From contig JAJOHG010000002.1 of assembly GCA_021029095.1 (NCBI GenBank), forward strand, positions 1,736,001 through 1,800,000: a stretch of DNA of 64,000 bases, given 5' to 3'. Positions within the stretch are counted from its first letter, which is position 1. Each line of letters starts with the position of its first letter. Positions 14,877 through 62,433 of this stretch are shown here, in pieces. The DNA comes from Phellopilus nigrolimitatus (lineage: Eukaryota > Basidiomycota > Agaricomycetes > Hymenochaetales > Hymenochaetaceae). Both the position numbers and the translations under genes were made by a program. The notes below the pieces were generated by a model. That model saw only the letters and a program-made list of their open reading frames with translations, made no database searches and was not told the origin of the DNA.

Positions 14877-16412
14877 TTACTCATCAGAGCATTGATGGTG
14901 TAACTTGGCAGGCCACTCACACGAAGCACGCGATAACGAATCAAACACAAGGTCACCAATGGTTAGACTTTGATCGGGACTAATCAGCGCGAGTTCGACC
15001 CCAATGTGCTGGCATAGTGTCCTTGTTTCTGAGACCATCTCTGCCTCCGGAATAAGGAGCTTCTGCAGCTTTGGTAGATGGTTGTCAGATAACAGCGAAT
15101 GCATGAGATGATCTGTTTTTGAGCTTTCGAACACAATCACACCGCTGCCATCGTCGCTGGCTACTCGATAAGCAGTCGCATCAAACTCCACGACGCGCAG
15201 AAGAGGAGGGTGCTGAGGCTGGCTCTCTAAGGTGATCAGGTCATTGATGTATATGTGAGGATGGAAGCATTCGAATTCAGCGAGAAACCGACAAGCTTCC
15301 TTGTTTGAGACCTCGCTCTGAGAGAGCTTGGCGAGAGAATTCGTCCCAATATAAAAAACTGTTGGGCCTGGGCCATAGCCTTTGGCCGCCGAGGAAGTAT
15401 GTCTTGAGTTCCTGTTCAATGAAGCCTGTTCATACACCGAAACGACAATCGTGTTCAGCGCGCGGGGGAATTTAATTGCCCCCAACTCGACTGCCAAGCG
15501 AGAGGTTTCGGGATCCTCATCTTCCTCGTCAGATATTGCAGAATCATCTTTAGGGTGCCAGTCACCTAAATGTAGGTATGAAAGCTTTTGAAGACCTTCG
15601 TTATGTTGGAAAAGCGAAACGAGCAACGAGCGGGCAAGCTGCAACGACAAGCCAAAGAAGAACAGTCCTTCTAAATGCACAAGTTTTCTTATGGCAAGAA
15701 ACACATCGCGCATTGCAGCAATGTCAACTTCATCCCAGTAATATAAGAAGCAATCGACGCAGAGGAACGATAGGTTTGGAGTATATGAGAGTAGAGCGAC
15801 CAAGGATTCCGGCTTCCAAGGGTAATGCTTAAAACCTGGCATCGTGGTTTGCTCTATGCCCATCTGCAGTTCTTTGATACGGGATAGGAAGTCTGTATTC
15901 CTGAGGAGACGGAGCGAGAGTTGATGACATATGTTTACTCGACGCTGAAGCGCCCTTTGAGCAGGCGCTGTCCACGTTCGATGCACAAGACACATGCTCA
16001 ATAGACATCTCTTTGTATCAGAGAACCTTTCCGTTCTACTTTCCGAAGAAGAGAGCGAATCGTAAAAGAACTCGTCAAGCCCTCCTTTGAGCTGCTCGAC
16101 AACCTGGTCGATAATGACATGAGCCATGGGAGACGCAATCCTGGGCTTGGCGAAAGCAGAGGGATCTCGGGCTATAAGTTCATAGTTGACGAGATGGCGC
16201 GTGAGTTCTGCGCCGCTCTCCAACGTAAGCCGCTGAGTGTCAAAGTCGTGGTGGCGCGTGAGCTGGAGCACCGCGTCGAAAGCCGCTTCAGAGAAACCGT
16301 GAGTCAGCGCAAGCTGCACGAGGAGCTGGTCAGACCGAGTCTTGACTGGTACGAGAAATGCGCTGGAAGGTTTGTGGACATAAAAATCGCCTCGACTCTG
16401 AGGCGCAGCCAT
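14877..16412 (-). CDS. F-box-like / LRR-like protein, 511 aa
   Basis: Single-exon frame; I take the ATG at 16412 (MAAPQSRGDFYVHKPSSAF), since the frame only extends upstream by three non-ATG codons. Residues about 95-150 (MAHVIIDQVVEQLKG, then LLSMCLVHRTWTAPAQRALQRRV) match the short F-box-like helix pattern common in Agaricomycete proteins, where the partner would be SKP1 of an SCF ubiquitin ligase. The rest is a run of leucine-rich helix/strand units (SLVALLSYTPNLSFLCVDCFL, LQKLSYLHLGDWHPK) with an acidic loop (SDEEDEDPE). No intron and no frame break. The substrate cannot be predicted. Confidence 0.72.
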   Translation of the reverse strand: MAAPQSRGDFYVHKPSSAFLVPVKTRSDQLLVQLALTHGFSEAAFDAVLQLTRHHDFDTQRLTLESGAELTRHLVNYELIARDPSAFAKPRIASPMAHVIIDQVVEQLKGGLDEFFYDSLSSSESRTERFSDTKRCLLSMCLVHRTWTAPAQRALQRRVNICHQLSLRLLRNTDFLSRIKELQMGIEQTTMPGFKHYPWKPESLVALLSYTPNLSFLCVDCFLYYWDEVDIAAMRDVFLAIRKLVHLEGLFFFGLSLQLARSLLVSLFQHNEGLQKLSYLHLGDWHPKDDSAISDEEDEDPETSRLAVELGAIKFPRALNTIVVSVYEQASLNRNSRHTSSAAKGYGPGPTVFYIGTNSLAKLSQSEVSNKEACRFLAEFECFHPHIYINDLITLESQPQHPPLLRVVEFDATAYRVASDDGSGVIVFESSKTDHLMHSLLSDNHLPKLQKLLIPEAEMVSETRTLCQHIGVELALISPDQSLTIGDLVFDSLSRASCEWPAKLHHQCSDE

Positions 16413-17266
16413 CGTGGTCAAGAATCAAGCCTTTGACGGTATTTCGAATTCGATCACCGCGCCGAATGGACTACTTGAGGGCCGGTGCTACTCACGTGAC
16501 ACATACGACGCGACTGTTGTGGCATGTTTGGATCGCGCCGTGCACACTGGTCAACATTACATATCTTACGGTGTAAACGAAATTTATACTAGTACAGCTC
16601 AAAACAAAAAAGAGAGAGATGGACTTACATGGTTTATGCCTCTGGATATGGGTTTCGATCACTGTTGTCCTAGCAAAATTTCCGATGGAATTACCTGCAG
16701 CCAAGCTCATGGGTGTCACAAGGTTGTCCATTTCTTAATATTAGTATTGCGTATACAGCGCTGAGACTTGCTAAGACATTCCACGATGAACGCACCTCCT
16801 ATAGGCCTTTTTATTCATAAGTCAAGCAAGCTAGGTTCTCAGAGTTCCTTACTCACTTCCATGTTGAACAAAATCTGGTTAGGAATGACTATGTATACAT
16901 ACAGAGAAAGGAGCGTACGGAAGCGGAAGGCGTGCGCGTGTGACTACGAATACAGATGCTTTTGGTTATGGTAGAGGGTAAACGAGGTGAGCCGCGTGGA
17001 TACGGCCTTTAATCGTGGTTATGAAATGAAAATGGAAGAAAAAGGAAAAGAGCTGAAAAAGATGCCTGCACCTGCCAGGAAAGACACAAGGATATAAGAG
17101 AGTCGAGTTCATCTAGGGGTATAATGCATCGGGAGATGCTGGAGCGAAGAAAGTACAAATTCCTGAAGAAACGCTTTTCTTTTGTGTATGAATCGAATAG
17201 ACATCTGCGCGGGGTTAGCTAGAAGAAGTCTGAACAAACATGCGTGTTCGAAGAAAAACGCAGTTT
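16413..17266. other. Intergenic region, upstream of F-box-like gene
   Basis: About 850 bp between two minus-strand genes. I see no supported gene, repeat or RNA. Confidence 0.5.
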
Positions 17267-19178
17267 CTATGTGTCATACTCCCTCTCAAAAGCATCAACG
17301 AGCCACGGATGGCTCTTTACCTCCGCAATGCTCGCGCGCCGCTCGGAGTTGGCCTCGAGACACCTCCTGAGCAGGTGCATGCATGCGTTAGACATGCGCC
17401 CCGCGTTCGCCTCGTCAAGCACGATCCGGCCGTGCCGCTTGTCATCCTCGGTCGGGAACGGAGACGTCCCCGTAATGAGAAAAGAGAGCAGTACGCCGAG
17501 AGCCCAGACCTCTGCGGCAGGGGCCTGGTATGGTTTGTCGTTAAGGATCTCGGGCGAGGCGTATGCGGCGGTGCCAAAGAATCTGCGATAGAATGGCCGT
17601 GGCTGGGTCGGGTCGGCAGAGACGACGCTTCCAAAGTCGATAATTTTAATCTGGAGCATCCCTTAGGATTAAGTACCGAGCCGGCTCTTTCGCGGATAAG
17701 CGCACCTTCAAATCTTTGTCAATGACGACATTCTCGTCCTTAATGTCGCAATGAGTGATACCGAGCTTGTCTAAATAGTCGACGACATCGACGACCTGTG
17801 CAAATACGTATTTGCCGTCTTCCTCAGCGAACCGCTTGTGCTTGGATTGTTCGATACACTCGAAGAGGTCATGCGATGCCCGGCGAACATTCTTTGGCCG
17901 AGCAAGGGGCCCTTTTCCAGGCTTTGGAGGCCTAGAAAGCTGACAGTTACCGTTACCTTGAGCAGAAAACGGATCGTCCGAGAGACTAGGCTGCTTCTCA
18001 TGTTGAGCTTGGGCAGTCGGAATGACTGGTGGTAGAACGTTCGCGTTCACAAGGCAAGTTCCACTAGGCTCTAGAGAAGACTGCTTCCCAGGAGTGAGCT
18101 TTTTCTTCTTTTTGATCCACGGAGTTCCATGAAGTTCTTGCACCTGCGTGCCAATAATGAGTATTGACAAATTCAACCGAGGGTAAAAGGACGAACAAGA
18201 TAAAAATAAACTTCATCCTCGAAGAGGTCGTAAAACTCGACAATGCCAGGATGGTCGACGATTGACAGCAATAGCGCCTCTTTCGGCACGTCGTTCCCAT
18301 GATCGTCCACGCCCCACCCGTACCGAGGGACCTTGTCTTTTGCAATGAACTTAACCGCGACCTCGCGTCCGTCATAACGATGCTGTGCCGTCATTACGAA
18401 GCCATATCCGCCAGCGCCGAGCTCCGCGTCCAGCGCATACTTGTGCACGAAGTCGGTTCGAAGACGGTGCTCAGGTGGAAAGAGCGCGCAGTACGACCGC
18501 CCGAGCGTAGACGGTAAGAACTCTGACGTATAAGCGCGTGCAAGCTTTGGCTTCTGACCTGGATGCGTGCTGCTGATCGGTGACTGCGTGCTAGGTGCGC
18601 GTTTGCGCCGCGGCGAGGGGAGGGATTGCGTATCCATGTGGAAGACAGGACGCGGGATCAGAGATGGTTTAGCCAATTCGTATGCAGAAGAAGCGTGTGG
18701 TGTGGGTGATTGGATAACGCTAGTCGGGTAAAGGTCGAGGCTAGTATCCTCGAGACTAATCTCGGTATCAAGTAAGGTAGTTGTACATAGCATTGAAGGA
18801 TCGAGGAACGGGGGAGAGACTGAGATAGATGAGGCAGGCGATGAGGTAAGAGAGTTTCCGAACATAGCTGTATCGGTTTCTTTCGGCGGAGTCAAGAAGC
18901 AGATTGGTTTGACTGGAGGGCTGGCCAGAAGAAGCGCATGCTGCTGCTGTGGCATGCGCACCTGAGTCTGAGGGATTCGACGCATCGACGTCATCTTCAA
19001 AGGAGTCGCAAAGAATAGGCGGGAAAGCAATGCGGACAAGTTGCGTGTTGTCCGTTATAGGCGTGTACAGCTGGTCTCCGTCGTCTGAGGACGTGTCTCC
19101 CAGGTCCACGCTAGTAGTCGAGTTCAGAGTCTGTTGAAGTTGTAAGCCGGTGCCACCAGAGCTAGAGCCACCAGCCAT
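17267..19178 (-). CDS. Serine/threonine protein kinase, PAS-kinase-like
   Basis: Catalytic domain in order: Gly-loop LGAGGYGFV, ATP lysine in VAVKFI, FEDE then VQELHGTPW after an intron at about 18155-18218, catalytic loop HCDIKDENVVID, then after an intron at about 17654-17709 IDFGS, ASPEIL and WALGVLLSFLITGTSPF. The order DIKDEN...IKIIDFGS resembles yeast PSK1/PSK2 and animal PASK; no PAS domain is visible. HCD replaces the usual HRD arginine. A 90-residue low-complexity insert lies between the hinge and helix E. The N-terminal 240 residues are Ser/Thr/Pro-rich regulatory sequence. Start taken at the first ATG, 19178 (MAGGSSSGGTGLQLQ). Between about 18950 and 19000 the reading frame must change; either an intron (donor near 19035, acceptor near 18969) or a one-base error. 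Confidence 0.8.
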
Positions 19179-19766
19179 AACAAGATATTCCGCTATCGTT
19201 GGGAAGCTTGTATCCGCGGCAATGCTTATTTGTTTCTTAGACGTTTTCACGAGTCATTCATATGAGAGATAGAGAAAAAGAAAAAGAGAAAAAGAGAAAG
19301 GAGAGTACGAGGGATCGCAGAGCAGACTGGTAGGATGGAAGACGATGGAAGAGTGAGGAAAGCGGCTTAAAGACCGATTTTGCCGCTAAGTCCAGAGTGA
19401 AATGCACCAGAAGTCATCGAAAGCACTCGGTCTGCGTCATCTCCTCCCTCCATCGTCGAGTCATAAAATATGCAGAGTTGAATCTCACAAAGTAGAGTAA
19501 CGATAATTCAGAGAGAAACGAAATGAGCGATGGTGGAGGTTGGGATGAAGGTATTTTACAGCCGCGGGGCTAACGGCTGCGGGGCGCTATGACGAACCGG
19601 CCCGGTACTCCTCCGCCTTGCCTCATTCAGCCGCCACGCCCATACTTAGGCTATCGTCATCACCCGCTGTATGTACATGTATCGAGCGCAGTCGTGACTC
19701 GCATTGACATCCTCTTTCCCGAACCACCATCTCCTCAACCAATCTACTCGCAGCGCAAAGCCCAAG
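19179..19766. other. Divergent intergenic region with a purine tract
   Basis: About 590 bp between the kinase and the I9 inhibitor. Close to the kinase start, 19263-19306 is an almost pure A/G tract (repeats of gaaaaa and gagaaa) on the plus strand, that is a pyrimidine tract in the kinase leader or promoter, where such tracts are common in fungi. Nothing else seen. Confidence 0.5.
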
Positions 19767-20240
19767 ATGTCCGAAAGTATGTGCTGCTTTGTATAATTTT
19801 TTCTAACTCTAGTCATCAATTCACCCTTTGTTTCATCATCGCCCTTACTATATGCGCCCACCCAGACTACATTGTCGCATTCCAAGACGACGTCACTGAA
19901 GAGCAGGTCAGGGAATACGCCGAACAAGTGAAAACAGGCGGTGCGCTCCCATTCTGTACTGCTCGCGATCCCGTTGCTGAAAGTTACAAGTATTTGTTCT
20001 CGAACTGCATTGGCACATTGCGACTCTAAATAGGCGGCTCGATCAAAGAGCACTTCGACTCGAGGTTCCTCAACGGGTTTTCAGCGACGATTCCACCGAC
20101 CGTCTTGCAGTCGTTCCAGAGCTTCCAGGGCGACATCATCAAGTACATCGGTACGAGCCTTTTCCTAGGTATTGTCTCATCTCAACACTAACCCGGGATG
20201 AACGGATGTAGAGCCCGACAGTGTTGTCACCATTCAGTGA
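19767..20240 (+). CDS. Stand-alone inhibitor I9 domain protein (PoIA1-like), 76 aa
   Basis: A small cytosolic subtilisin inhibitor related to the propeptide of subtilases (Pleurotus proteinase A inhibitor 1 type). Four exons: ATG at 19767 (MSE), an exon starting NYIVAFQDDVTEEQVREY, an exon GSIKEHFDSRFLNGFSATIPP to SFQGDIIKYI, and a last short exon EPDSVVTIQ with stop 20238-20240. Introns begin gtatgt, gtgcgc and gtacga and end cag/tag. The whole protein is one I9 fold: beta strand YIVAF, helix, central strand GFSATI, helix and C-terminal strand VVTIQ. There is no signal peptide and no attached protease. The frame is intact. Such inhibitors act as chaperones or inhibitors of intracellular/vacuolar serine proteases. 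Confidence 0.85.
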
Positions 20241-20482
20241 GGAGCGAGTGGTATTGGCCACCTGAATGTCTGAATTTGATTAGCAGAGTGTACAATAAGT
20301 GTTTGATTAGCAGGAAGGCCATATCGAAGCCGTCAATAAGAGATTACTTCAGTAAAATACATCCCGCTTATAATCTTTGAACTGTAAGGTAATAGTCTAC
20401 GACATGCGAGCTCTAACAACTGAGCACGGTTGACGTGCCAATGCCCAAGACCAAGACAAACATTCGTCCAAGTAAAAGACGT

Positions 20483-22029
20483 TCAGCCAACAGGTAGCTT
20501 CTCCTGCACCGCCGCCATCGTACCCTCCCCTAGCGCACAGGGTGTACGCACCGGTGTCCGCAGGGCCTCGCGTGATGCAATGCTCGAGCGCGCTGGGTCC
20601 TCACCCATGAGCTCCGCCTGCTCTGGCTTCGCCGCGAGACACGGCGCCTCGAAAATTGAGCCGTCCCACACACTTGGCAAAGTGCGAGACGTCGCAAATA
20701 ACCACAGCAAGAGTGTGAACACGGCGTAGATCGCACCCCAGACACGCAAGATACGCGAGTCGATGGTGCCAGCAAGCTGGATTGTTAGATTCGCGTAGAC
20801 GCCCTGTTTACAAAAATAAAATTTAAATGCCAACGAAAAGGCCAACTGTTACAAGCACTCACGTTAGGGAAAATCATTCCCCAGAAAGTGATTTTGAACG
20901 GCAAGGTGTTTTTCAGTAAAGTATCACCTAATGCCAGGAGGGCCAGAAGCAACCAGCACGTCGCGAAGCTCCACAATGCAAATGCGATCGTCCACGCCAT
21001 AACATACATGATATGCGGCGTCATCTCATGCACGAAGATGTTCGCCACTGCGTCACCCTTAAGCGGGAAAAGGTCCCTGCAGATCTCGCCGAGCAGGAGG
21101 AACGCGTAGCCAGACTGGCCGAGCGGGCCGAGCGGCAGGAACGCCGAGAAGATCGTGATGCCCTCCGGGAGCCCGTGCACGATGAGCCGGTGCAGGTAGA
21201 TCGTGAACACCGCGAAGGCGAGTGTGATGCCGACGGTGACGAGAGCCATGCACACGGCGAGCGTAAGACAGGCGCGGGCGGTGTCGAACGGGATCATGGC
21301 CTGCGCGATGACGGCGCCCGTCGAGGACGCGACAATGAGCGTGACGATGGGCAACAGCCATACCATCGTCATCATGGAGATGTCGTGATTCTGACGGGTG
21401 AACCTGAAGAAAAGAAAGAAAATCAGATGAGGGGATGTGTTGATAATTTGAAGAAATGCGTACATGACATGAAGCTGCCCGAAACAAATGACCAACGACA
21501 GTGCGACGTCAATCCACCACAGTCCCCACAGGCCATATAAAAATCTGTCTCCCCCGTATCCGAAGTAGGTATACACGATACCGACGGAAGACATGAGAAT
21601 CGTGGCGAAGCCCATCGGAAAGCATCCCAGGTAAAGACTCTGTACCGGGTGACGGATCATCGACGACCAGATTCCGCGGAAGATAGTATACCGAGCGACT
21701 CCGCACAGAGTAAGTACGACGAAAAATATTAAATTTAGGAGGAGGAAGAAAAAGGCCACGGTCTGCATCCCTCGACTTTCAGAGCCATACGGGAAGACAT
21801 GGAAGAGGGTAGAAATGGCGCCCGTGCCTACTCAAAAGAAACACATAAGCTCAGGCGCGTCCGGTGAGTAGAAAGGAGTATACCCATGTTGACTGCATGC
21901 CATGCTGGGGTGAAGTGCCTTCCAGCAAATAACTCAGTACGTAGCAAAAATTTGGAAAGAAGAAAAACTGACAACGCACCTAATACGCTCCCGAAGCGGC
22001 TTTTTGTTTTTGCAGTCGCACGTACCCAT
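20483..22029 (-). CDS. SSU1: SSU1-like sulfite efflux / TDT-family transporter (copy 2)
   Basis: Same family and exon structure as the gene at 4408-6061. Start ATG at 22029 (MGTCDCKNKKPLRERIRHF), with an in-frame TAG three codons upstream, so the leader is much shorter than in copy 1. Conserved segments: FTPAWHAVNMGTGA, MQTVAFFFLLLNL, RHPVQSLYLGCFPMGFATI, LYGLWGLWWIDVALSLVI, MMTMVWLLPIVTLIV, IVHGLPEGITIFSAFLPLG, ALGDTLLKNTLPFKITFWGM, and after the last intron GVYANLTIQLAGTIDSRIL. The C-terminal tail (about 70 residues after SVWDGSIFEAPCL) is hydrophilic. An intron at about 21404-21464 sits where copy 1 has a similar one. The frame is intact. About ten helices; plasma membrane exporter of sulfite or a related anion. 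Confidence 0.88.
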
Positions 22030-35614: not shown

Positions 35615-37025
35615 TTAATAGCAGTTCAGGCCCGGGCTAACCCCGAATTTTAAACCCTCTTCCATGCAGCGCCGTATCGATTCCATGCCCTTTACCTTCT
35701 CCATGTCGCAATCGATACTCGAAAACTCTAACTCCTCGAATTCTTCAAATGCGTTCCATCTGGATAGGAGCATATGAGCAACTAGGTCCTCCATACCTCC
35801 CCATCCAGAAATTTTGTGAACGACCATAATGTGCAACGACGGACACAGCGCATCAGCAGGTCTGCTGACCTCCCCTGACAGAAAACGCCTCCAGGAAATG
35901 CGCCGAAAGGGAAGAGTCAACGATCAGAAGTTCCTCTAACGAGGGCAAAAGCCGCAGAGCCTCAAGGAGATATTCCTCTTCCGTGAACCCTTCACAGACC
36001 CTGACAACTGTCAAAGGAGGCTGCGACCGCTTTATAAAATCCAGGAGAACAGGACCGGAATCCTCGAGCTCGGAACTGATAGACAAGCTAATGAGAGCGG
36101 GAGCCGTGAGTTTCCCAAGAATGAAGGTGACATCTATAGAATTGGCCATGTACAGACCGCGGAGAAGAGGTAGATTTATCGATGTCGAAAACCAAGGAAA
36201 ACAGGTTTCAGCGTTTTCAAATTCAACTCTAAACTCCTCGATATTGGGCGCTGCGTGCAGTAATTGGAGGCAAGCATCTGCAAAATAATTATCTTCTGGT
36301 GGAGCAGGGAAATTGAGCGAACAGCTCCTCAAATTCGTCAATTGTAGTTGTTCAGGGAGAGGTTCGAAAACTTCAGTGCATTCGAGAATGAGATTTTTTA
36401 TGTTGGGAGCAGAAGCGAGGTCAAGCGTGAAATCTTCAAGGATAAAGGTTACGGCGAAGCACAAAGCAAGGCGTTCTATCTGTGGCATAGACGACATCTC
36501 CATAGAAAATTCCTCAGAAGGACATAGGCCATCACATAACAAAGTCAGGTCCCTCCACCGGCTCTGGTGCTGCAACATAGTCGTGATGATCCGCTCGGCT
36601 GCGTGGTTGCTTTCGCCTAGACAGTTCTCGACGGATATGTTTACAGTATAATGTAATAAGGAGCTCCCCGATCTGAGCAGCCACGTATTCAGAACAACTT
36701 CGAATGCTGGAAGCGACATATCATTGCTCGAGTCATAGTGTAGAAAGGCCCACAATCGACTTGTGGTCAACGCGACGTCGCGCCAATATCGACAAGTTTG
36801 CGAGACGTTCCAAGGCACCTCACAGCTCGAAAGACGGTGATAGTTGCGGGACAGACACGCAAGAAAGATTTCCCGAACGACCTCTGGCGGAAGTCGCTGT
36901 GCGATCGGAGTCGGCACTGCACTCTCAACAGTAAGATCGTGTCCGAGCCTTTTTTGCACTAAAAAAGAACGAGGGGTTACAAAAGCATTCATTGCGCTCA
37001 TAGATCGAAGAGACCTACGCGACAT
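35615..37025 (-). CDS. F-box-like / LRR-like protein with one frame slip
   Basis: Start ATG at 37025 (MSRRSLRSMSAMNAF). F-box-like helix pair at residues about 43-90: RLPPEVVREIFLACLSRN and VSQTCRYWRDVALTTSRLW, as in the large Agaricomycete F-box-like family that tethers substrates to SCF ubiquitin ligases. The body has leucine-rich units (LTNLRSCSLNFPAPPED, SLEELLIVDSSLSAHFLEAF). The frame stops at 35856 after RGGQQTC, but the adjacent paralogous copy reads GQETVDVLCLLLYRI at the same place, and the next frame here continues ADALCPSLHIM then WGGMEDLVAHMLLSRW to a stop at 35615. One extra base near 35861 therefore splits the gene. A sequence error or a recent mutation are both possible. Confidence 0.75.
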
Positions 37026-37508
37026 GTCACCGCAAATCAGCGTCAGCTAAGAAAAACTGAGATTTCTGTCAAAGGATGTCGTAAACGAATCGAGTACGTT
37101 CAAACGTCGAGTTCAGTGCGGTGATTTGAGAGCCGCTTTATTTCTCGAGGCGTCGACCTTTATATTGCAAGATTTGAAAAAAACAAAAGGCACCTTGAAG
37201 CCCCACGAAACTGCACGAACAAAGAGACAAAAGCAAAGCGGCTCACCTGCACGAAGTGGCTCTGACTCCGGATCAATGAGCTGTAACAATTGGAAGATAA
37301 ATTTAGGTCGCTTCCGCCCATGCACTTTCTAGAGACAATTCCCGGTAAGAAAAGGCATACAGCCTACAGACGAGTGCATGATAGCGGCAACTCGAGGAGA
37401 ATATTCGTAATGACTTAAAGTTGGCACGACTCCTATGCGGTAAATATTGTTTGTACTGAAGTCCATTGGCACAGAAAGACCGTCTTTATCAAACACGCCA
37501 TAAACTTC
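37026..37508. other. Spacer between F-box gene and its decayed copy
   Basis: About 480 bp; promoter region of the intact F-box gene. No other feature seen. Confidence 0.5.
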
Positions 37509-49868: not shown

Positions 49869-50610
49869 TCAGTGCCTCAACCCGTTTACTCCCATGGCCC
49901 TCATCGTTCCCTTCGCCCTTTCAGTGCAATTCTCGAACTTGCGGATTCTCAGACCCGCGTCGAAGTCCTTAACACTCGCGGCGTCGACGTTAATCGTTGT
50001 CTCCCCCTTCAAAGACGTCTCGCTTGTAATGTAATCGTTGCTGTGGATCTCGACGTCGCATCGCGCATGTGAGACATCGTACCCTTCCCAGGACCCGACG
50101 ATCCACTCCTCGTTCCATGCGTCGAGGATAAAATACACGTCAGAACGCAAGACGTACTTCCTCTGGTAAAAGAACAGCTCCGAACGAGGAGCCACCTCGA
50201 CCCTCGTAGTCTCCGTCTTCGAGGTCGTCGTCTCCTCGGAGTGGAACGTCTTCTCGCTGTGCTCCGCTGAGATCGTGATGCCCTTAAACGCAGCAGACAG
50301 GCCGATCGTGTTGCTGACTTCAGAGCCGTTGGTCACCTTGAGCTCAGTCTTGTACTCCTGCGTGTACGACTGGGCGGCGGAGGTGCTGTTGTCCCAGGAC
50401 ATGAGCTTGTCGTTCTGGATTTGGACTAAATAGTTCGTGACGATGGCGTATAGTGCCTCATCTCCAGCGGCAGAATAGACGGTCTGGCGGCTTCGGCTGA
50501 GGAGAACGTCACCACTCTGGGGTCGACTAACGAGGAACTTCGTGACGGGGTCGTTGCCTTTGGGCTGGGGGGAATGGGAATGACACCAACGGTCAGTCGA
50601 CAAAATTGGC
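49869..50610 (-). CDS. Unrecognised beta-rich protein with Ser/Thr-rich amphipathic hairpin (5' exons unresolved)
   Basis: The main exon runs from the acceptor near 50567 (PKGNDPVTKFLVSRPQSGD) to the stop at 49869. It is dominated by alternating polar/apolar strands: TQEYKTELKVTNGSEVSN, then TIGLSAAFKGITISAEHS, EKTFHSEETTTSKTETTRVE, followed by YQRKYVLRSDVYFILDAWN. This arrangement resembles the membrane-insertion region of aerolysin/ETX-MTX2-type beta proteins, but the resemblance is to a pattern and not to a named family. An upstream exon ends SRSKIM at a gtgagt donor near 50642 and can be followed back to about 50730; its start codon is not clear (an ATG-CAT exon with donor gtaaga near 50874 is one option). 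No signal peptide can be assigned. Confidence 0.5.
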
Positions 50611-50649
50611 GGACACGAAAGAGGTTTGCAGACTGTACTCACCATGATT

Positions 50650-51811
50650 TTCGATCTCGAGTTTGGGTTGTAGTCTCTGGGCGTGTAGATGCCCGGTATT
50701 TGTACACTCGGGGACAGGTCAACCGAGGAGGTGGTGCTGCCTCGACTCGTTCATATCCGCCGACGTCGGTTCAGCAAAACAAGGGCGCGCAACGTGTGTA
50801 TCTTTCAAGTTTCCTTTGCTGTTTGAACGACGCCCCCAAAACGAGCACTTTAGGCTCGCATATCTTACATGCATGGAACCGCGATCGCATCCGGAGCGGC
50901 GCATCAGCAGGAAGCCATGCCAGTACTAGTACTAGTATAGGCCCTAGTAGTCCCCGAGCTCCAGCAAATACGGGTCGCGCGAATATCGATCCGACAGTGC
51001 TCGTAAATTGCAAAAAATAGTGCAGGAAGTCAGATTTCCCCGGACTGAAGCTGGGCTGGAAGTGCTAGGACATGAACTCGAGTAAGCTTCTATTCGTTCG
51101 CCTTTCGACCGAATTTCGTGCACATGCCACCGCATCGACAAAATCACATATTCTGTGACGACAATTATCGAGAACTTGAGAGGATTCCCTGGTCCTTTCA
51201 GTGTGCCAAAAGCAATAAAATCGGGAGTAGTACTAGTAGTACGGAATCAGTGCATGGTATGCGAATATTGTTCGATTCCGGCACCTTCCGAACTCTTTCG
51301 GTTCCGTTTGTTTCGATGTCTCTTGCCATCGAATGAGGCATCCAGAAAAGTATATTGGAAAGAAAGAGCTTGTTGTGCACCTATAGCAACCTTCTTAACA
51401 TTCAAGTAAAGATAAGAATTGCATACAATAAGACTAAAAAAGATATTGGATATAATGGGCGACGATAGTGGGACCGATTATTAAATAGAACTCCTTGAGA
51501 CCAAGACAAAATAAAGGGATGCTTGGGAAAAGAGGAAAACGTGCAACAGAGGAGGTGGGAGGGTGGTCAGCTGTGAATATCTCCGATGGGAGAAGAGTAC
51601 GTGTGGACGTGAGCATCTGGACGATATAGATGTCTGATAACTGTGTTTGATTTGGTTCGATCTCCACTGGCTCCCGAAATACAATACTCGACGCTTCAGT
51701 CTTCCGCGACTTTGAATTCGATGCGCGGACGAGCGCTTCGGCGCCTCCGCTCGACGAGAAGATAGCTCACTGATTTGATACAGATAACGATGCCGCTGTC
51801 AGATGCCAAGG
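50650..51811. other. 1.2-kb stretch with unresolved 5' exons and otherwise nothing seen
   Basis: The first 250 bp probably contain the upstream exons of the beta-rich gene. Near 50927 and near 51225 there are short ACTAGT-type tandem runs (agtactagtactag and agtagtactagtag). The rest shows no gene. Confidence 0.4.
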
Positions 51812-55079: not shown

Positions 55080-55739
55080 CGTGGAGAGGGTTGAAGTCGC
55101 GCAAGACGTCGTACACATTTGTAGGCGCTGATTTGCTTCCTGAATTGTCTGCTCCGTCTCGTGCTCACCTTTTTCGTTACTAAAGCTTAACTTCGCTTCT
55201 TCTTCTTTCTCTTCCAGATTCCAGACGCACCGTCCTGACCATAGCTTGCTTTCGCACCATACCCCTTCTCATTGTTTTGTCTGTTGCCCTTTTAGCTTTT
55301 CGTTTCGCGAGCACGAATGTTCTGTGGACTCTTTTACTTCATTTTCCTCATTGTTCTTCGCCCTTTCGCTTCTATATCCCGGCCACCCTCTATGCGGGAT
55401 GTGCCAGACCTCATAACCCATCTGCATGTGTACTAGTAAAATCACGATTGCAATTTATCACCCACCATATGTTCGACACCGAACTCCTCAAGAAAGGCCA
55501 GATGCAGTTATCGGAGGAAAAGGCTCCACGCGATAAACATGTAGGGCCTTGTGGGTCCAAACGGACCCGCCTGTCGCGACCACGCGTGCGAAGCGCCACG
55601 ACGAAGCCCAGAGCTCCATGCTGGCAACATAAACGCTTACAGCGCGCAATTCTGGCGGTATTCGAATGAGCTTTCGTGTACGATAGAAAGAGGGGAAATC
55701 AGTGTCATTTGTGGTCTCCTCGCTGTAGTAAGCCACATT
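55080..55739. other. Spacer between SEC2 and the tandem array
   Basis: 660 bp; 3' flank of SEC2, T-rich until about 55350. No gene recognised; composition becomes GC-richer from about 55550. Confidence 0.45.
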
Positions 55740-56083
55740 TTCTAGGTCGGTGCGGGAGTGCCGCGGGACTGCACCAGTGTGCAGTGAGAGACGACACGGG
55801 CGCGTGCTGACCTAGACGGCGGTGGGGTGATCTGGCTGCTGCTGTTGACGTCGATATAACAAACAGGATGAAGGAGAAGAGGCGGCGCGGAGATCTCGCA
55901 GAAACACCAAGGACGCGGTCTCAGCAACGTTGCATGTTTTGCGGGCAATCTTCCATATGCCCGTTGGCTAATTACGCACACAATGCTTTCTGCTTTCTGC
56001 TCTGGATACGGGGCCCGTATCTGTTTGCACCATTTGCGTCCTGGCAAATTTGTCTGTACGCCACTTTGCACAGGCTCATTTTC

Positions 56084-56177
56084 TATATAAGACGCATCCC
56101 TGGCAGCCTTTCTCGCCTCAACATATCCACTTACCAGAAACAAGGTGCGCATCTGACTGATCTGCAGTGATCTGCAG
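56084..56177 (+). promoter_or_regulatory. TATA promoter and leader of unit A
   Basis: TATATAA at 56084-56090 within the stretch ctatataagacgcatccc, which also occurs in units B and C at the same distance (about 140-147 bp) from the start-codon position. A 33-nt segment 56145-56177 (gtgcgc...ctgcag with ctgac branch-like motif) looks like a tiny leader intron. Confidence 0.65.
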
Positions 56178-56223
56178 CGCTTATTCATATGTTTTGTTCT
56201 GGGACAGCGCACTTGACTTTAAC

Positions 56224-56535
56224 ATGCCGCCCAAGTTTGAGCACAGCCCCGCGGACTATGAATATGTGGTTACACAGGCCCATATAAAGATCGCCACCGC
56301 CATCGTCGGTCCCCACGATACGCATTTGCAACAAGCCGACGACAATGTAGCACGGGCTCTTGCTGAGATTCAGAATTGTAAGGACGAGCTGGAAGATATC
56401 CTTGAAAAGAAGAAGCAGAACCCACAAGCGTACCTGGAGACGGAATGCACAGTGAAAATGAGACTGAAGTTCATGGAAGATCTGCACCAGCATTGGTCGA
56501 AGTATGTACATGAATTATTACACCCCATAGAATAG
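56224..56535 (+). CDS. Small helical protein A of the tandem array, 103 aa
   Basis: Not recognised. ATG at 56224 (MPPKFEHSPADYEYVVTQ), stop TAG. The first 40 residues are polar, the rest is a charged helix (ALAEIQNCKDELEDILEKKK) ending in MRLKFMEDLHQHWSKYV, which is the signature shared with proteins B and C: M-K/R-x-K-F ... H/E-Q-Y/H-W-x-x-Y/F-V. No signal peptide, no membrane helix. An upstream ATG at 56191 is out of frame and overlaps the start, so translation could be reduced or leaky. The frame is also open upstream through FWDSALDFN, a peptide conserved in the leaders of B and C. Confidence 0.55.
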   Translation: MPPKFEHSPADYEYVVTQAHIKIATAIVGPHDTHLQQADDNVARALAEIQNCKDELEDILEKKKQNPQAYLETECTVKMRLKFMEDLHQHWSKYVHELLHPIE

Positions 56536-57640
56536 TAGGACTGTATCCCGATTAAAGTAGTAATACAGGCGAGCTGCCCATGCGCGGTACAACACCCCTC
56601 CCGCCCGAGAAGACATACGTCCACGTGCTGTTTTTCTCTCTCTGTATGACTACGAGTGTGCCGCCGAGGATGGCAGTTAGCCATTGCGCCTTTGCGCATC
56701 CAGAATCCAATGCATGGCCAGCGCTGCAGCCGCCATCACGTGAGCTCAGCTGCCGTGCGAGTCTTATTTGACTATGTTTGGCAGAGTCGGAGTTTTAATA
56801 GTTCAGCATGTATGCGCACCCGGGAGTCCCTCGCGCATTTACTACGTATTACACGATATGCTTGGAAACACTTTCGTTGTCTTCGCCAGCGCCACAAAGA
56901 CAAAAATCCAATACTAGGAGCGCGCAGACATGGTTGGAGACTACGCACCTGCGACTACCTGTTGACGGCCCGGAATGTGCCCTAGAATACTACAATACCG
57001 GCCGGCTGCCCGCCAAGCGCGCACGGCGGCTTTGCAGAGCGCATCGCTGTGCAGTGAGCGCCGGCGTGCGCTGAATTGGGGGAAGTCGGACGGCGCCCAC
57101 GCCGCCTACTGCTGTCGACATGATATAATAACTAGGGTGAAGGAGAAGGTATGACGCGGAGATCTCATCCTGCCGCGCGCGCTCTGCGCTGACGGCCAGG
57201 GAGCCGCAATGTGGTGCACACGTACGCAGCTGCAGTCGTCCTGGAAACAGTGGCGCTTATGCCATGGACGTCGTCTCAGCAATCTTGCATGCTTTGTACT
57301 AGGCAATGGTTGCATTCTTGTTCAAAAACAGCGCGCCGCCGCATCCGCGCGCCCAGTTCGGGTGCACGGGTGCGCGGCGCGTCGTTGGCGGCCAGGGAAC
57401 CGCAATGTTGCTCACGTATGGGGCTGCATCGTCTTGGAAACAGTGACGTTTTCTGCCAAGGACGTAGAGCAATGCTGCATGCTTTGCAGGCAGTCTGCAA
57501 TACTGCATGCTCTGCGGGCAATCTTCCGCCTGTCAGTTGTCAGGCTACGCACACAATGCTGGATACGAGGCCCGTAACTGTTTGCACTGTCTGCATCCTG
57601 GCAAACCTGTCTGTGCGCCACTTTGCACAGGCCCATTTTC

Positions 57641-57755
57641 TATATAAGACGCATCCCTGGCAGCCTTTCTCGCCTCAACACACCTACTTACCACAGACAA
57701 GGTGAGCATCTGACTGATCTGCAGCGATCTGCAGCGCTTATTCGTATCGGTCTTG
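57641..57755 (+). promoter_or_regulatory. TATA promoter and leader of unit B
   Basis: TATATAA at 57641-57647, followed by gacgcatccctggcagcc and by the 33-nt tiny intron-like segment beginning gtgagc near 57701 and ending ctgcag near 57734. Nearly identical to unit C. Confidence 0.65.
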
Positions 57756-57785
57756 TTCTGGGACAGCGCACTTGCAGATTTTAAC

Positions 57786-58109
57786 ATGTCGCCCCGGTTT
57801 CCACACGACACCGCCTACTATCAAGGCGTAGTTACACAGGATGATATAAATGTAGGCACAGCCGGGCTCATCGGCCCCCACAGTACGCAACATAAGGAAG
57901 CAAAAGCAAAAGAAAATACGTTTTTCCAGTTGTTTAACAAATACAAGAAAGACTTGGCAAATATCCATGAAAAGATGCAGCAGAGCCCACAAGCGCGGCA
58001 GGAGGCCCTGAAGAAGGAGAAACACGAAACAGAAATGAAAGTGAAGTTTGCGGAAAATCTGCACCAGTATTGGATGGAATATGTGATTAGTTTGTACGAG
58101 ACGGAATAG
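57786..58109 (+). CDS. Small helical protein B of the tandem array, 107 aa
   Basis: Not recognised. ATG at 57786 (MSPRFPHDTAYYQGVVTQDD); stop TAG. Lys/Glu-rich helix (FNKYKKDLANIHEKMQQS) ends with the family signature EMKVKFAENLHQYWMEYV. Most similar to protein A: both begin M-x-P-x-F and have VVTQ at the same place, GPH followed by a polar stretch, and the same length. Leader frame upstream of ATG encodes SVLFWDSALADFN as in unit C. No signal peptide. Confidence 0.58.
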   Translation: MSPRFPHDTAYYQGVVTQDDINVGTAGLIGPHSTQHKEAKAKENTFFQLFNKYKKDLANIHEKMQQSPQARQEALKKEKHETEMKVKFAENLHQYWMEYVISLYETE

Positions 58110-59841
58110 TAGGAATGTATCCCAGCTATAGCGACTGAAGTAGTGATATAGACGAGCTGCCCTCGTATGGTACAGCGCCCCCACCCGCCCGAGAAGACGA
58201 CCACATGCTGTCTTTCTTTGTGTGACTATGAGCGCGCCAGAGTTGGCCGTATTCCGAAGCATGGCCAGCGCCTCAGCCGCCATCGCGCGAGCGCCCGGTC
58301 GGACACGCTCTTTAACGCTTTCCTGTTCCGTTCCATCCTCTGAGTCTGAATAAACCGCCCGGACCGCGCGTGCATGCAGGGTGCCGGGCCTTCCCGCTGT
58401 GCGAGAGATACTGAGCAGCAAACTGGGGAGCACGCGTTCAAGTCTAGATCAGATGTCCCGTGTGGGTATAGCACACTGTTGTATCAGTAAATCTACATGT
58501 AACGCGTGTTTTCTTCATTATTGCCTCCAATAACGAAAGTAGACTTTGCGGCTTACTGGCATCCGACCGCATCCCATCCGAGTCGCCAATTTCGTTCGGC
58601 CATGCAAGCAGTATATGCACTGGGGCGATTCGGACAAGTACACATCCAAGTGACCGCACGTCTGAGAGCGCACAGGCACGGTCGGAGACTCCGTGTCCTC
58701 GCGTACTTCAGGAAAGTGCGTAGTATACTACGATATCGACCACCTGCCTGCCCGCAAGTGCGCGCGGCGGCTTTGCGAAGCGCGTGCCGGTGCAGTGAGC
58801 GCCGGCGCGCGCGGAACGAGAAGTAGTCGGACGGCGCCATCGCCGGCTGCTGCTGTCGACGCCGATATAATAAGTAAAGGCGAATGGGAATAGAAAGAGG
58901 CGACGCGGAGACCTCGTCGCAAAACTGCGGTATGCGAGTCGAGTCGTCCCCTCGAAAGCATACCTTTTTGCTTTCATAACGTGTTTACAAAGACACTACA
59001 TCGCCCCCAAAAACAACACGGCGTATATTCGATAGTCAGTTAATCTATTCGCAACATGCAAGCTGCGAGGGCCACTCACGGTCTCCTGGCATGCACCCCG
59101 CAGTGTCCGCGCCGCGGCGATTCTAACCAGCTGATTAGGACCGGAAAGGGCGCTGAATAAACAGCCACGGCCGTTCCCGCCTCAAGCGCCTTTCCCACCG
59201 CTCGGGATGACGGGACACGGCGTGGCGGGAATGCGTAACGGGTCTGATGGGGTGCGCCGCGGTGCGGATTCTGGGCCTGGCGGGCCTCGTAGGTCCAGAT
59301 CTTCGGATCGGCGCAGAGCGAGGCGGACGCCGGAAGCAGCCAGCAAGGTCCATGCAGGTGCATCGCTCGCCGCACACAGACGGGCCTGCCGCGCATGCTC
59401 TGTGCTGACGGCCAGGGAGCCGCAGTTGCAGTCGTCCTGGAAACAGTGGCGCTTATGCCATGGACGTCGTCTCAGCAATCTTGCATGCTTTGTACTAGGC
59501 AATGGTTGCATTCTTGTTCAGAAACAGCGCGCCGCCGCATCCGCGCGCCCAGTGCGGGTGCACGGGTGCGCGGCGCGCGCGCCGCTGGAGACCAGGAGGC
59601 CGCAATGGTGCACACGTATGCGGCTGCAGTCGTCCTGGAAACAGTGACATTTTCTGCCAAGGACGTAGAGCAATGCTGCATGCTTTGCAGGCAGTCTGCA
59701 ATACTGCATGCTCTGCGGGCAATCTTCCGCCTGCCAGTTGCCAGGCTACGCACACAATGCTGGATACGAGGCCCGTAGCTGTTTGCGCCACTTGCGTCCT
59801 GGGAAACTTGTCTGTGTGCGAGTTTGCACAGGCCCATTTTC

Positions 59842-59936
59842 TATATAAGACGCATCGCTGGCAGCCTTTCTCGCCTCAACATATCTACAATGCCAGAAAC
59901 AAGGTGAGCATCTGACTGATCTGCAGCGATCTGCAG
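59842..59936 (+). promoter_or_regulatory. TATA promoter, leader and 33-nt intron of unit C
   Basis: TATATAA at 59842-59848. Leader exon ends caag at 59903, intron-like segment 59904-59936 (gtgagc ... ctgactgat ... ctgcag) with a second ctgcag ten bases earlier. In this unit the leader exon contains an ATG at 59890 that A and B lack. Confidence 0.6.
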
Positions 59937-60531
59937 TGCTTATTTCATATCCGTCTTGTTCTGTGACAGCGCACTTGCAGACTTCAACAGGCTGGAATGC
60001 GCCGCCGATCATGGATATCAAATCGAACAAGACGACATAGATGAGCTATTTGCGGAACGCAAGAAAATCCTCGCGGGCGACTCGGAACTGTGGCGCAAAA
60101 AAGTTCGAGAACAGTTAGAGAGGGTTGCTAGAGAAATTTATTCCGAAGGGTTGATGGTGAACCTTCTCCGTGAAAATGAGCACGTGAAGCCAGTCGTGTA
60201 CAAGGAGTTCTTCCCAAAAGCAGAAAACAAAATGAAGTTTTTGATAGGCAAGGAACAGTATTGGAAGGACTTCATCGGTGTACACAAAGCGCTACTTGCG
60301 GAACGCAAGAAAATCTGCGAGGGCGACAAGAGACTGCGGCACAAAAAAGCTCAAGAACAGTTAAAGAGGACTGCTGCAGAAATTAATTCCGAAGACGAGA
60401 ACTTGAAGAAGCTGAAAATTCTCCGTGAAAATGAGCACGTGAAGCCAGACGTGTTCCAGAAAGCAATCAACAAACTGAGGTTTGCGATGGACAAGGAACA
60501 GTATTGGGTTAAATTCCTCCATGCAAGTTGA
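59890..60531 (+). CDS. Helical protein C of the tandem array with doubled module, about 203 aa
   Basis: The ATG used by A and B is AGG here (59989-59991). An ATG in the leader exon at 59890 (MPET) reads, after removal of the 33-nt intron 59904-59936, in frame through SAYFISVLFCDSALADFNRL into the main frame and to the stop at 60531. The hydrophobic start (AYFISVLF) could act as a weak signal or membrane sequence. The body is two related modules of about 80 residues: ELFAERKKILAGDSELW to KMKFLIGKEQYWKDF, and LLAERKKICEGDKRLRHKK to KLRFAMDKEQYWVKF, each with LRENEHVKP in the middle. Proteins A and B have one such module. If the tiny intron is not spliced, the gene has no usable start and is a pseudogene. 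Confidence 0.5.
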
Positions 60532-60930
60532 GAAATGTATCGCAGTCGTAACAGTTGAAGTAGTAATATAAGCGAGCTGGCCCTGCGCGGTACAGCACCC
60601 CCTCCCGTCCGAGGAGTCGTCCACATGCACCACCTCGCTGCGCATGCTTTTTTCTTTCTCTCCCTGTATGACTATAAGTGTGAAGTGTGCCCCCGAGAAT
60701 GGCACTCAGCCAACCGCGCGGCTGCGCGTTCAGAATCTAATGCATGGCCAGAGCTGCACGTGAGCTCCTCTGAATATACCGTGCGTGCTGGACGCCTGGC
60801 CTCCCTGCTGGGCGGAGACACTAGGCAGCGAGCCGGGAAGCGCGTGCCCGAGTCTACTACGCGCTGCGGAAAGCCAGATGCCCCGTGTGGGTAGAGCAGG
60901 CTCGTATTTAGGAAATCTAATGCGAGCTCT

Positions 60931-62433
60931 CTTTGTCATTGACTGCCGACTACTGCAATATCAGCAACAGACTGCGCGGCTCACTCCAAATCTGCGCGGC
61001 CATATATACGCGCGGGGCGGCACCGCCACGCGACGAGATATAATATGCGTCTTGTGGGGTAGGATATAATGGGGTGGGGGCACGCGGAGGGCCCTGGGGG
61101 TCCCGCGCCTCACGTACCCTCGGCGATTCGCGCGGCACGGCGGGAACGCGTAACGGGTCTGCGGGGAGCGTGGAAGAAACGCAGACGGGGGGCGTGCGTG
61201 CGGGTGGAGCGCGGCGGCGGCGGGCTGCTCTGCTCGCGGGTAGCGTAACGCGGCTTGGCTTGGCTTGGCTTGTATTTAGTAACTCTAGTGCCATCGACTG
61301 TAGACACGGGCCGATAGCGTGCATTTAGGCCACTCTGTCGAAGAGAGCCTTCTGCGCACCGGGGCGACGCACATGCAGGTCCGGACCCCCGGATCGGCGC
61401 ACGCAGGGAAGCCCGTTATACAAATGCATGTGCTGCGGCCGAGGGACCGGGAAGAAGGGACGCGTGCGTCCGGAGAGAGGCGGACGCCGGACAGACGTCT
61501 CGTGCGCGTGCGTGCGTGTATAGGGACGACTGGGAAGATGGGAAATAGACTCGGCGGATGTCGTTGGACCTCGGACGGCATGGCATGTGGCATGGAAGGG
61601 GGACCTGATTTGCGCCGGATCGGCGGATGACTCATCCGCCCCCCCTCCCCTTCCGCATCTGAGTCCGCCGAAAGCAAGAATAAAGTCCGAAACGTCCGAT
61701 AGGGACATGCGCGACCCGCCCGGCGCCGAGCCCGAGCCCGAGCCCGAGCCCCGAGCCCCCGAATTTGAATCTGCAAAGAACGAAATCGGAAACAAAAACA
61801 AGGCCCTTTCCTTTGATAACGCGTTTGGTCCCCGGGCGGCTACGAAAACAAAGACGCGCGCGCGCAGGTGGGCAAGTGCGGATTGGAGAGAACGCGCTTT
61901 GCGCCGCGACCCGTGAACAGAGGAATTCGCCGCGGGTGCGATCGACGCGCGCGCGCAGCTGCTGGCTGGCTGGCTAACGCGAGCCGCGCTCCGCAAAGAG
62001 CAAAGAGCAACGGGGGTGGCTTCGCACTACATGTACGCTTAGAAAGCCGGCCGCGGTGCACGGTTAATCACGCACGTACGTATACGTGTCGCGCTTATCG
62101 CCCCCTTTGACCCGCCTAAAACAAAAATATACCAGCACAAAGCCGTCCGCCAGCGCCGGATCTCTTTCGCCTCAGCAGCCCCCTCCTTCCTTCAGGCTTC
62201 CATACACCGCGCAGCTCGGCGTTGCGTGGCGGACGTGGCAGCGCGGCGCTGCAGCCCGAGACACCGCGCACACCGCACCGCAAACTGCGCTTCGCGCCGC
62301 TTTCGCGTATACATATAGCAGGAGCCCAGCTCAGCCCCCCCTCGCGTCTCTGCTTTGTTCTCTTTTCTGCGTCGCCTCAAGTATATACATACGCCGCTAC
62401 CGCCGCCGCGTCCCCCGCGCCCGACCGGCTTAC
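60931..62433. other. GC-rich intergenic region with short tandem repeats
   Basis: About 1.5 kb. Contains ggctt repeated four times (61253-61272), gagccc repeated four times (about 61728-61751) and cgcgcg/gcgc runs. Open frames here on both strands are Arg/Ala/P-rich by-products of GC composition. A tatac/tatag stretch near 62307 may belong to the promoter of the next gene. Confidence 0.45.

Follow-up and report, generated by a model that had tools for sequence, protein, structure and literature searches.

What keeps the promoters, 5' exons and introns of neighbouring genes nearly alike while the proteins that they precede diverge? The question is raised by units A, B and C, three genes arranged head to tail on the forward strand of a 64,000-nucleotide stretch of DNA (positions 1736001-1800000 of contig C112; hereafter the window) in the 56.4-Mb, 635-contig assembly of one Phellopilus nigrolimitatus strain. 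Each unit consists of a TATA box, a short exon 1, an intron of 63-66 nt (GT...ACAG) and a second exon that holds one open reading frame (Table 1). We lean, somewhat beyond an even balance, towards the view that the units belong to a lineage-specific, fast-diversifying family of helical-hairpin proteins with a shared expression cassette, the surfaces of which diversified through a role in recognition or conflict.

A sequence-only reading of the window had described three tandem units with a common TATA block, leader and intron, and coding parts that diverge far more than these. Base-by-base alignment, as proposed there, bears this out: the leaders are 91% (A-B), 89% (A-C) and 89% (B-C) identical, whereas the codon-guided identity of the coding sequences is 64%, 48% and 48%, respectively. 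The upstream DNA reported to be common to B and C is equally real, comprising 157 nt at 98% and 259 nt at 93% identity; over 400 bp upstream, B and C are 93% identical, compared with 48% for A-B and 51% for A-C, and over 400 bp downstream the values listed for the three pairs are 62%, 58% and 65%. The block past the stop codon, said to be nearly the same in all units, is merely conserved: among six copies (D was left out because its 3' flank is unrelated), the first two bins of 60 columns have median distances of 0.22 and 0.20, and the median exceeds 0.3 beyond. Across all 28 pairs of copies A-H, leader identity is 75-92% versus 37-64% for the coding sequence.

The excess of coding divergence extends to silent sites. 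Between A and B, ~20 of 222 leader positions differ, as against ~24 of 60 synonymous sites (Fisher p = 9e-8), and in 10 chosen cluster pairs the leader divergence (K) is 0.10-0.23 versus a synonymous divergence (dS) of 0.39-1.68, with ratios of 1.7-12.6; divergence at silent sites is thus likewise several times that of the leader. Inside the leader, divergence of the intron (mean distance 0.105) does not exceed that of the promoter (0.133). For four older pairs elsewhere in the genome, leader K is 0.31-0.58 versus a dS of 0.49-1.23; here the leader stays slow even without visible recent conversion. Overall, synonymous divergence exceeds that of the leader 1.6- to 13-fold. As far as sequence can tell, the common promoter, exon and intron support the shared expression program that had been suggested for the units.

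The contrast between flanks and coding parts had been taken as a sign of fast diversification. The frames do diverge fast and yet stay open, but the contrast is not by itself diversifying selection, because synonymous sites are also far more diverged and the ratio of nonsynonymous (dN) to synonymous divergence within the cluster is ~1. In addition, part of the flank similarity represents homogenisation by ectopic recombination, and conservation of the intron equals that of the promoter. In the 10 cluster pairs, dN is 0.32-0.91 and dN/dS is 0.54-1.32, all 10 intervals spanning 1. The older pairs yield dN/dS values of 0.56 (confidence interval 0.34-0.87), 0.44 (0.23-0.68), 0.58 (0.33-0.87) and 1.10 (0.70-1.81), that is, three of the four older paralogue pairs are under coding constraint (0.44-0.58, intervals below 1). 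The chance that a frame would stay open under neutrality is 0.006-0.08 per branch in five simulated settings. Among the comparisons made, a significant replacement excess is found exclusively between the two internal modules of copy C: over 76 codons, they are separated by 47 replacement and 3 silent changes (dN/dS ~4.8; Fisher p 0.0029, 0.0004 and 0.0001 at kappa 1, 2 and 3, respectively; 0 of 2000 neutral simulations). In the 69 codons of the ungapped segments alone, the counts are 34.5 versus 1.5 (p 0.009 and 0.002). In copy F, the two modules are saturated with changes and give no information on this point.

The cassette recurs well beyond the window. DNA searches with divergent leaders, combined with two pattern searches, place it at no fewer than 22 gene positions after merging of haplotigs: copies A-G, two positions on C113 and 13 more on C603, C516, C457/C556 (two), C556 (two), C101/C620, C622/C25 and C68 (five). 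Copies D-G continue the array on the reverse strand of C112, at 1804.9, 1811.9, 1814.5 and 1818.4 kb. Beyond the 22 positions, there is a promoter remnant on C609, lacking leader and frame, and a further protein, P0006, whose leader was not read. An alignment of 20 leaders averages 69% identity per column, and a TTTG motif ahead of the TATA box never varies, even where the proteins do not align; the 44-kb copy on C556 has no splice donor. The promoter pattern has 9 matches in 56 Mb, all at family loci (the reversed control has 0), and the other pattern has 19, of which 14 lie at family loci and the other 5 were not examined. Most frames at the 13 further positions are open, charged, ~75-280 residues long and helical-looking by eye (no coiled-coil predictor was used), those of C516 and of the 496-kb and 497-kb copies on C68 being short. 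Eight family frames are modelled as proteins in NCBI records, among them P0001 and P0003, hypothetical proteins of P. nigrolimitatus. The C68 copies (496-519 kb; L028, L034, L035, L036) form a second cluster, with three copies on the forward and two on the reverse strand facing each other over ~18 kb, a convergent layout like that of A-G on C112.

Comparison of the two haplotypes reveals how the cassette behaves. Contig C81 is the allelic haplotype of C112, with 98.3-98.4% identity in two flanking stretches of 6.4 kb and 21.8 kb, and 92-96% between. The two alleles of copy D do not differ at any of 297 coding bases and differ in 25 leader alignment columns; on C112, the D leader has an F-like tract, and on C81 a partly B-like one, an exchange that also switches the exon-1 ATG on or off. 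At the level of the alignments, ectopic recombination thus acts on the leader, paralogues having exchanged leader tracts. Between A and C, C81 carries the upstream DNA of B and then switches to the leader of C near C81:22,420-22,480, inside the shared promoter block; the coding part of B is gone through unequal exchange between the B and C promoter blocks, and a separate deletion of ~1.36 kb takes out the coding part of C. As a result of this crossover and deletion, the strain retains B and C on one haplotype only. C81 also contains an LTR (long terminal repeat) retrotransposon of ~5.6 kb (15835-21454), inserted ~12 bp past the stop codon of A, with end repeats of 297/298 bp that are ~99.8% alike and a GTATC target duplication; related LTR pieces lie near 1809.8 and 1815.5 kb of C112. 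In the C81 allele of copy E, the stop codon is lost (TAA to CAA) and the frame ends one codon later.

At one locus, the two haplotypes carry coding parts that cannot be aligned. The region C457:15.0-24.5 kb is collinear with C556:118.3-128.0 kb, and its flanks are 97.9% identical over 4.3 kb on the 3' side of the gene and 89.4% over 5.0 kb on the 5' side. Binned by 100 columns, the 5' flank reaches 90-100% identity in most bins and 74-89% in some, and the leader 84-88%; the coding bins fall to 46-58%, which is alignment noise, and identity regains 97-98% within ~150 bases past the stop codon. Nothing else in the genome matches the C457 coding piece, and the only relatives of the protein encoded by the C556 allele are 35% identical, on C101/C620. 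The C457 allele may be decaying, because it has a second intron-like stretch and a broken frame. Recent replacement of the cassette from another copy was considered as the origin of the difference and rejected, since protein searches found no donor, although a donor may have been lost or left unassembled; a mating-type locus, suggested by the diverged alleles, was dropped as well, as Pfam scans of 11 family proteins detected no homeodomain.

The C-terminal signature (MKxKF...QYWxxYV) that the coding parts were said mainly to keep occurs in its strict form in B only, and in an alignment of seven proteins the only invariant columns are Met1 and a tryptophan. Protein database searches matched only P. 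nigrolimitatus proteins (1, 2 and 5 hits at E <= 1); because the search needs shared 5-residue words and the five-hit result comes from the best 7,995 candidates scored, distant orthologues may be missed, and the family has so far been seen, in these sequence comparisons, only in this species. None of the 11 family proteins scanned (at E <= 1 or 0.1; copies D, E and G excluded) reached a Pfam cut-off, those of HET, NACHT, NB-ARC, NLR and homeodomain models included, and six proteins gave nothing near an NCBIfam cut-off. The protein of the 516-kb copy on C68 matches an NWD1-like winged-helix model below threshold (15.1 bits against a cut-off of 27). AlphaFold2, run on B with six sequences, predicts two helices of 35-37 residues in a hairpin (best of five models, predicted local distance difference test score (pLDDT) 91.8 and predicted template modelling score 0.82; pLDDT of the five, 77.0 to 91.8), and for P0004, a member of the longer group, long coiled coils (pLDDT 87.9) that match nothing in the PDB at E <= 0.001. 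Matches of predicted structures in the PDB are to generic helical hairpins and coiled coils (TOCA1 HR1, UvsY, prefoldin, 5los) and are not clearly above background, and a PDB profile search gave three chance-level matches of coiled-coil type (best E 0.009, kinesin light chain). By hydropathy, without a dedicated predictor, A, B and C are hydrophilic, with a maximum 15-residue value of 0.70-1.27 and no membrane-like stretch. The A, B and C proteins are probably small, intracellular helical hairpins or coiled coils. In P0004, residues 37-51 are strongly hydrophobic (15-residue hydropathy 2.8); P0006 has a weaker such stretch (1.6) and P0008 has none.

Taken as a mechanism, one promoter/5'-exon/intron cassette would have been placed before small helical-hairpin or coiled-coil frames and kept alike by a mixture of selection for common expression and ectopic gene conversion. 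The same cassette would provide the homology that allows copies to be exchanged, added or deleted. The hairpin surfaces would have diversified through a role of the proteins in recognition or genetic conflict, the candidate processes being nonself recognition (between nuclei or between mycelia) and a selfish driver/suppressor system. A self-recognition type of family had been among the suggestions of the sequence-only reading. The presence of B and C in one haplotype only and the locus with unalignable alleles are as expected for genes of recognition or conflict; the role itself is a guess from the evolutionary pattern. More tentatively still, and with clearly less than even confidence, these genes may represent a basidiomycete conflict or nonself system in which the cassette serves both as expression control and as a recombination platform, so that the nuclei of a dikaryon could carry unrelated proteins at one locus.

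Several observations weigh against a diversifying recognition family. A cluster dN/dS of ~1 is equally expected under weak constraint, and two of the three constrained older pairs (C68d-C68e and C556b-C556c) have dS values above 1, near saturation. The signal from the copy C modules is one of 18 comparisons, and multiplying its p values by 18 gives 0.05, 0.007 and 0.002 (kappa 1, 2 and 3), or 0.16 and 0.04 on the ungapped segments. Eight allelic pairs, when pooled, show no replacement excess (ratio of nonsynonymous to synonymous diversity, piN/piS, 1.15; Fisher p = 1). The divergence at C457/C556, as aligned, is not confined to the coding part, because the 5' flank itself is only 89.4% identical over its 5 kb. 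Eight of nine allelic coding pairs (A, D, E, F, G, C101/C620, C622/C25, C556/C303 and the divergent C457/C556 locus) are ordinary, at 98-100% DNA identity; a tenth pair (C457:3.3k/C556:107k), which was not codon-counted, is 85-100% identical per bin, with the frame broken on C457 only. Copy H2 has an in-frame stop and the frames of C603 and both C457 alleles are broken, so that part of the family decays. Finally, protein homology between groups is weak (hhalign P = 0.012 for A2-A5, nothing for A2-P0007). The stop in H2 (G000:C113:438046-438432; L019) is a TAG, and this copy is probably decaying.

Many of these points are what one would expect of weakly constrained orphan coiled-coil genes evolving by birth and death, in which the coding part drifts because only helicity matters and the flanks remain alike through recent duplication and conversion. 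Such an account, which we consider unlikely while taking it seriously, accommodates the dN/dS of ~1 in all 10 cluster pairs, the piN/piS of the eight allelic pairs, the broken copies and the leader conversion directly evidenced by the two D alleles. It sits poorly with the dN/dS significantly below 1 in three of four older pairs, with frames that pure drift would hardly have left open, with the dN/dS of ~4.8 between the C modules, with leaders that are alike across contigs despite unalignable proteins, and with the locus at which the alleles themselves do not align.

Less probable again is a family of killer meiotic drivers, or drivers and suppressors, similar to the wtf genes, in which starts in exon 1 and exon 2 would give two protein forms. 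The wtf proteins are multi-pass membrane proteins, unlike the hydrophilic A, B and C, and the scans of 11 proteins against Pfam, which presumably includes a WTF family, returned no wtf-type match. The clustering and haplotype presence/absence, the nonallelic exchange that reaches the promoter and leader (the D tract and the B/C promoter-block crossover) and the start codons in both exons nevertheless speak for such a family: the exon-1 ATG is found in copies C, D, F and G and not in A, B and E, and in copy C, where the second-exon ATG is AGG, the frame is open from the exon-1 ATG if spliced as in the NCBI models P0001 (copy F) and P0003 (copy B), whose intron acceptor is that of the units. In fission yeast (Schizosaccharomyces), published accounts describe pervasive nonallelic conversion among wtf genes that includes promoters, an exon-2 ATG that starts the poison form (PMC6526906), and recombination that yields new drivers (PMC13160552). 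Clustering, rapid divergence, promoter-inclusive conversion, recombinant new copies and in-frame starts in exons 1 and 2 make wtf the closest working analogy, although membership would fail on the type of protein; the phylum differs, too, and drive is here at most a candidate role.

It is quite improbable that the conserved unit itself is the functional element, either as an RNA leader (regulatory or noncoding) or as a mobile promoter cassette, the frames being incidental. The intron is conserved as much as the promoter and the cassette is scattered over many contigs, which speaks for such an element, but dN/dS is below 1 in older pairs, most frames are open, with eight modelled as proteins by NCBI, and an Rfam search of positions 55700-61000 gave nothing at E <= 1 (no systematic search for transposon ends was made). 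Secreted effectors or toxins with a conserved expression cassette, another suggestion of the sequence-only reading, would fit the small size and rapid divergence and are nonetheless very improbable, as eight proteins show no hydrophobic, signal-like N-terminus by hydropathy (best 15-residue value in the first 35 residues, -0.67 to 1.27; no signal-peptide predictor was used), contain few cysteines (0-5) and match no such family at the cut-off.

The preferred reading, a diversifying hairpin family behind a common cassette, also finds parallels elsewhere. Venom phospholipase A2 genes form tandem arrays with accelerated exons and slower introns. In snake small serum protein arrays, introns evolve slowly (KN 0.065 and 0.049) and the KA/KS of young pairs exceeds 1 (PMC6609765). 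The cluster resembles such accelerated families in that noncoding DNA is much less diverged than synonymous sites and dN/dS is ~1 or above, with dN/dS below 1 in older members. It differs in that promoter, 5' exon and a single intron make up the shared part, which is found again at unlinked loci whose proteins cannot be aligned, and in that the alleles of one locus do not align either. Fungal het and mating-type loci (PMC10890737, PMC8229728) likewise show strongly diverged alleles at a single position and haplotype presence/absence; in contrast, no HET, NLR or homeodomain match reached the cut-off here, and there is one such locus, in one strain. Another basidiomycete two-helix hairpin is PIIN_05872 of Serendipita (Piriformospora) indica (PDB 5los). 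In the titles and abstract openings returned by literature searches on this fungus or gene type, no description of the family appeared.

Table 1. Features of units A, B and C (positions in the window).
Feature	Position	Strand	Remarks
Unit A promoter and leader	56002..56223	+	TATA 56084-56091, intron 56145-56207; DNA alignment with B, C and other genome copies
Unit A open reading frame (ORF), 103-aa helical protein	56224..56535	+	Open frame; 39% aa identity to B; C81 allele 99.7% identical
Unit B upstream DNA	57014..57558	+	Blocks 57225-57381 (98%) and 57429 onward (93%) common to unit C
Unit B promoter and leader	57559..57785	+	TATA 57641-57648, intron 57702-57766; NCBI model P0003 has identical splice
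Unit B ORF, 107 aa, predicted two-helix hairpin (residues 32-66, 69-105)	57786..58109	+	No counterpart in haplotype C81
Unit B conserved 3' flank	58110..58230	+	Counterparts ~56536-56660 (A), ~60532-60680 (C)
Unit C upstream DNA common to unit B	59385..59759	+	DNA comparison
Unit C promoter and leader	59760..59988	+	TATA 59842-59849, exon-1 ATG 59890, intron 59904-59969
Unit C ORF, 191 aa if spliced over 59904-59969	59890..60531	+	Modules ~60040-60279 and ~60280-60528, mostly replacement differences; coding part gone from C81

The NCBI model of copy B, P0003, is probably misannotated at its N-terminus, because it runs upstream through the TATA region, and provides an example of automatic gene models running through a promoter. 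Ordinary genes lie among the array copies, identified by eye from ORF lists and not family-tested, namely, a NIPA-like transporter, mitochondrial elongation factor G, an F-box-like ORF and tyrosyl-tRNA synthetase. Elsewhere in the window, all on the reverse strand, are a SLAC1-type anion channel (20785-21831; Pfam E 8e-65), a second ORF related to it by eye ~15 kb away (4756-5445), an F-box-like ORF under the Pfam cut-off (35853-37046) and a 293-aa ORF (49869-50750) with no Pfam match at E <= 1 and a best PDB sequence match at E 0.21, which is not meaningful. An ORF visibly similar to the F-box-like one lies ~50 kb off, across the cluster (L011:130-1506, forward strand). ARAGORN returned nothing across the whole window.

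How somatic incompatibility works at the molecular level in basidiomycetes is poorly understood, and the models derive from ascomycetes (PMC8229728). The evolutionary pattern described here is typical of genes in recognition or genetic conflict, and a family that combines allele-level coding replacement, haplotype copy-number differences and a recombining leader is a concrete candidate for a recognition or drive locus. Even if these were only weakly constrained orphan genes, they would still be a clear natural case in which conversion keeps the leader alike while silent coding sites diverge several times more.

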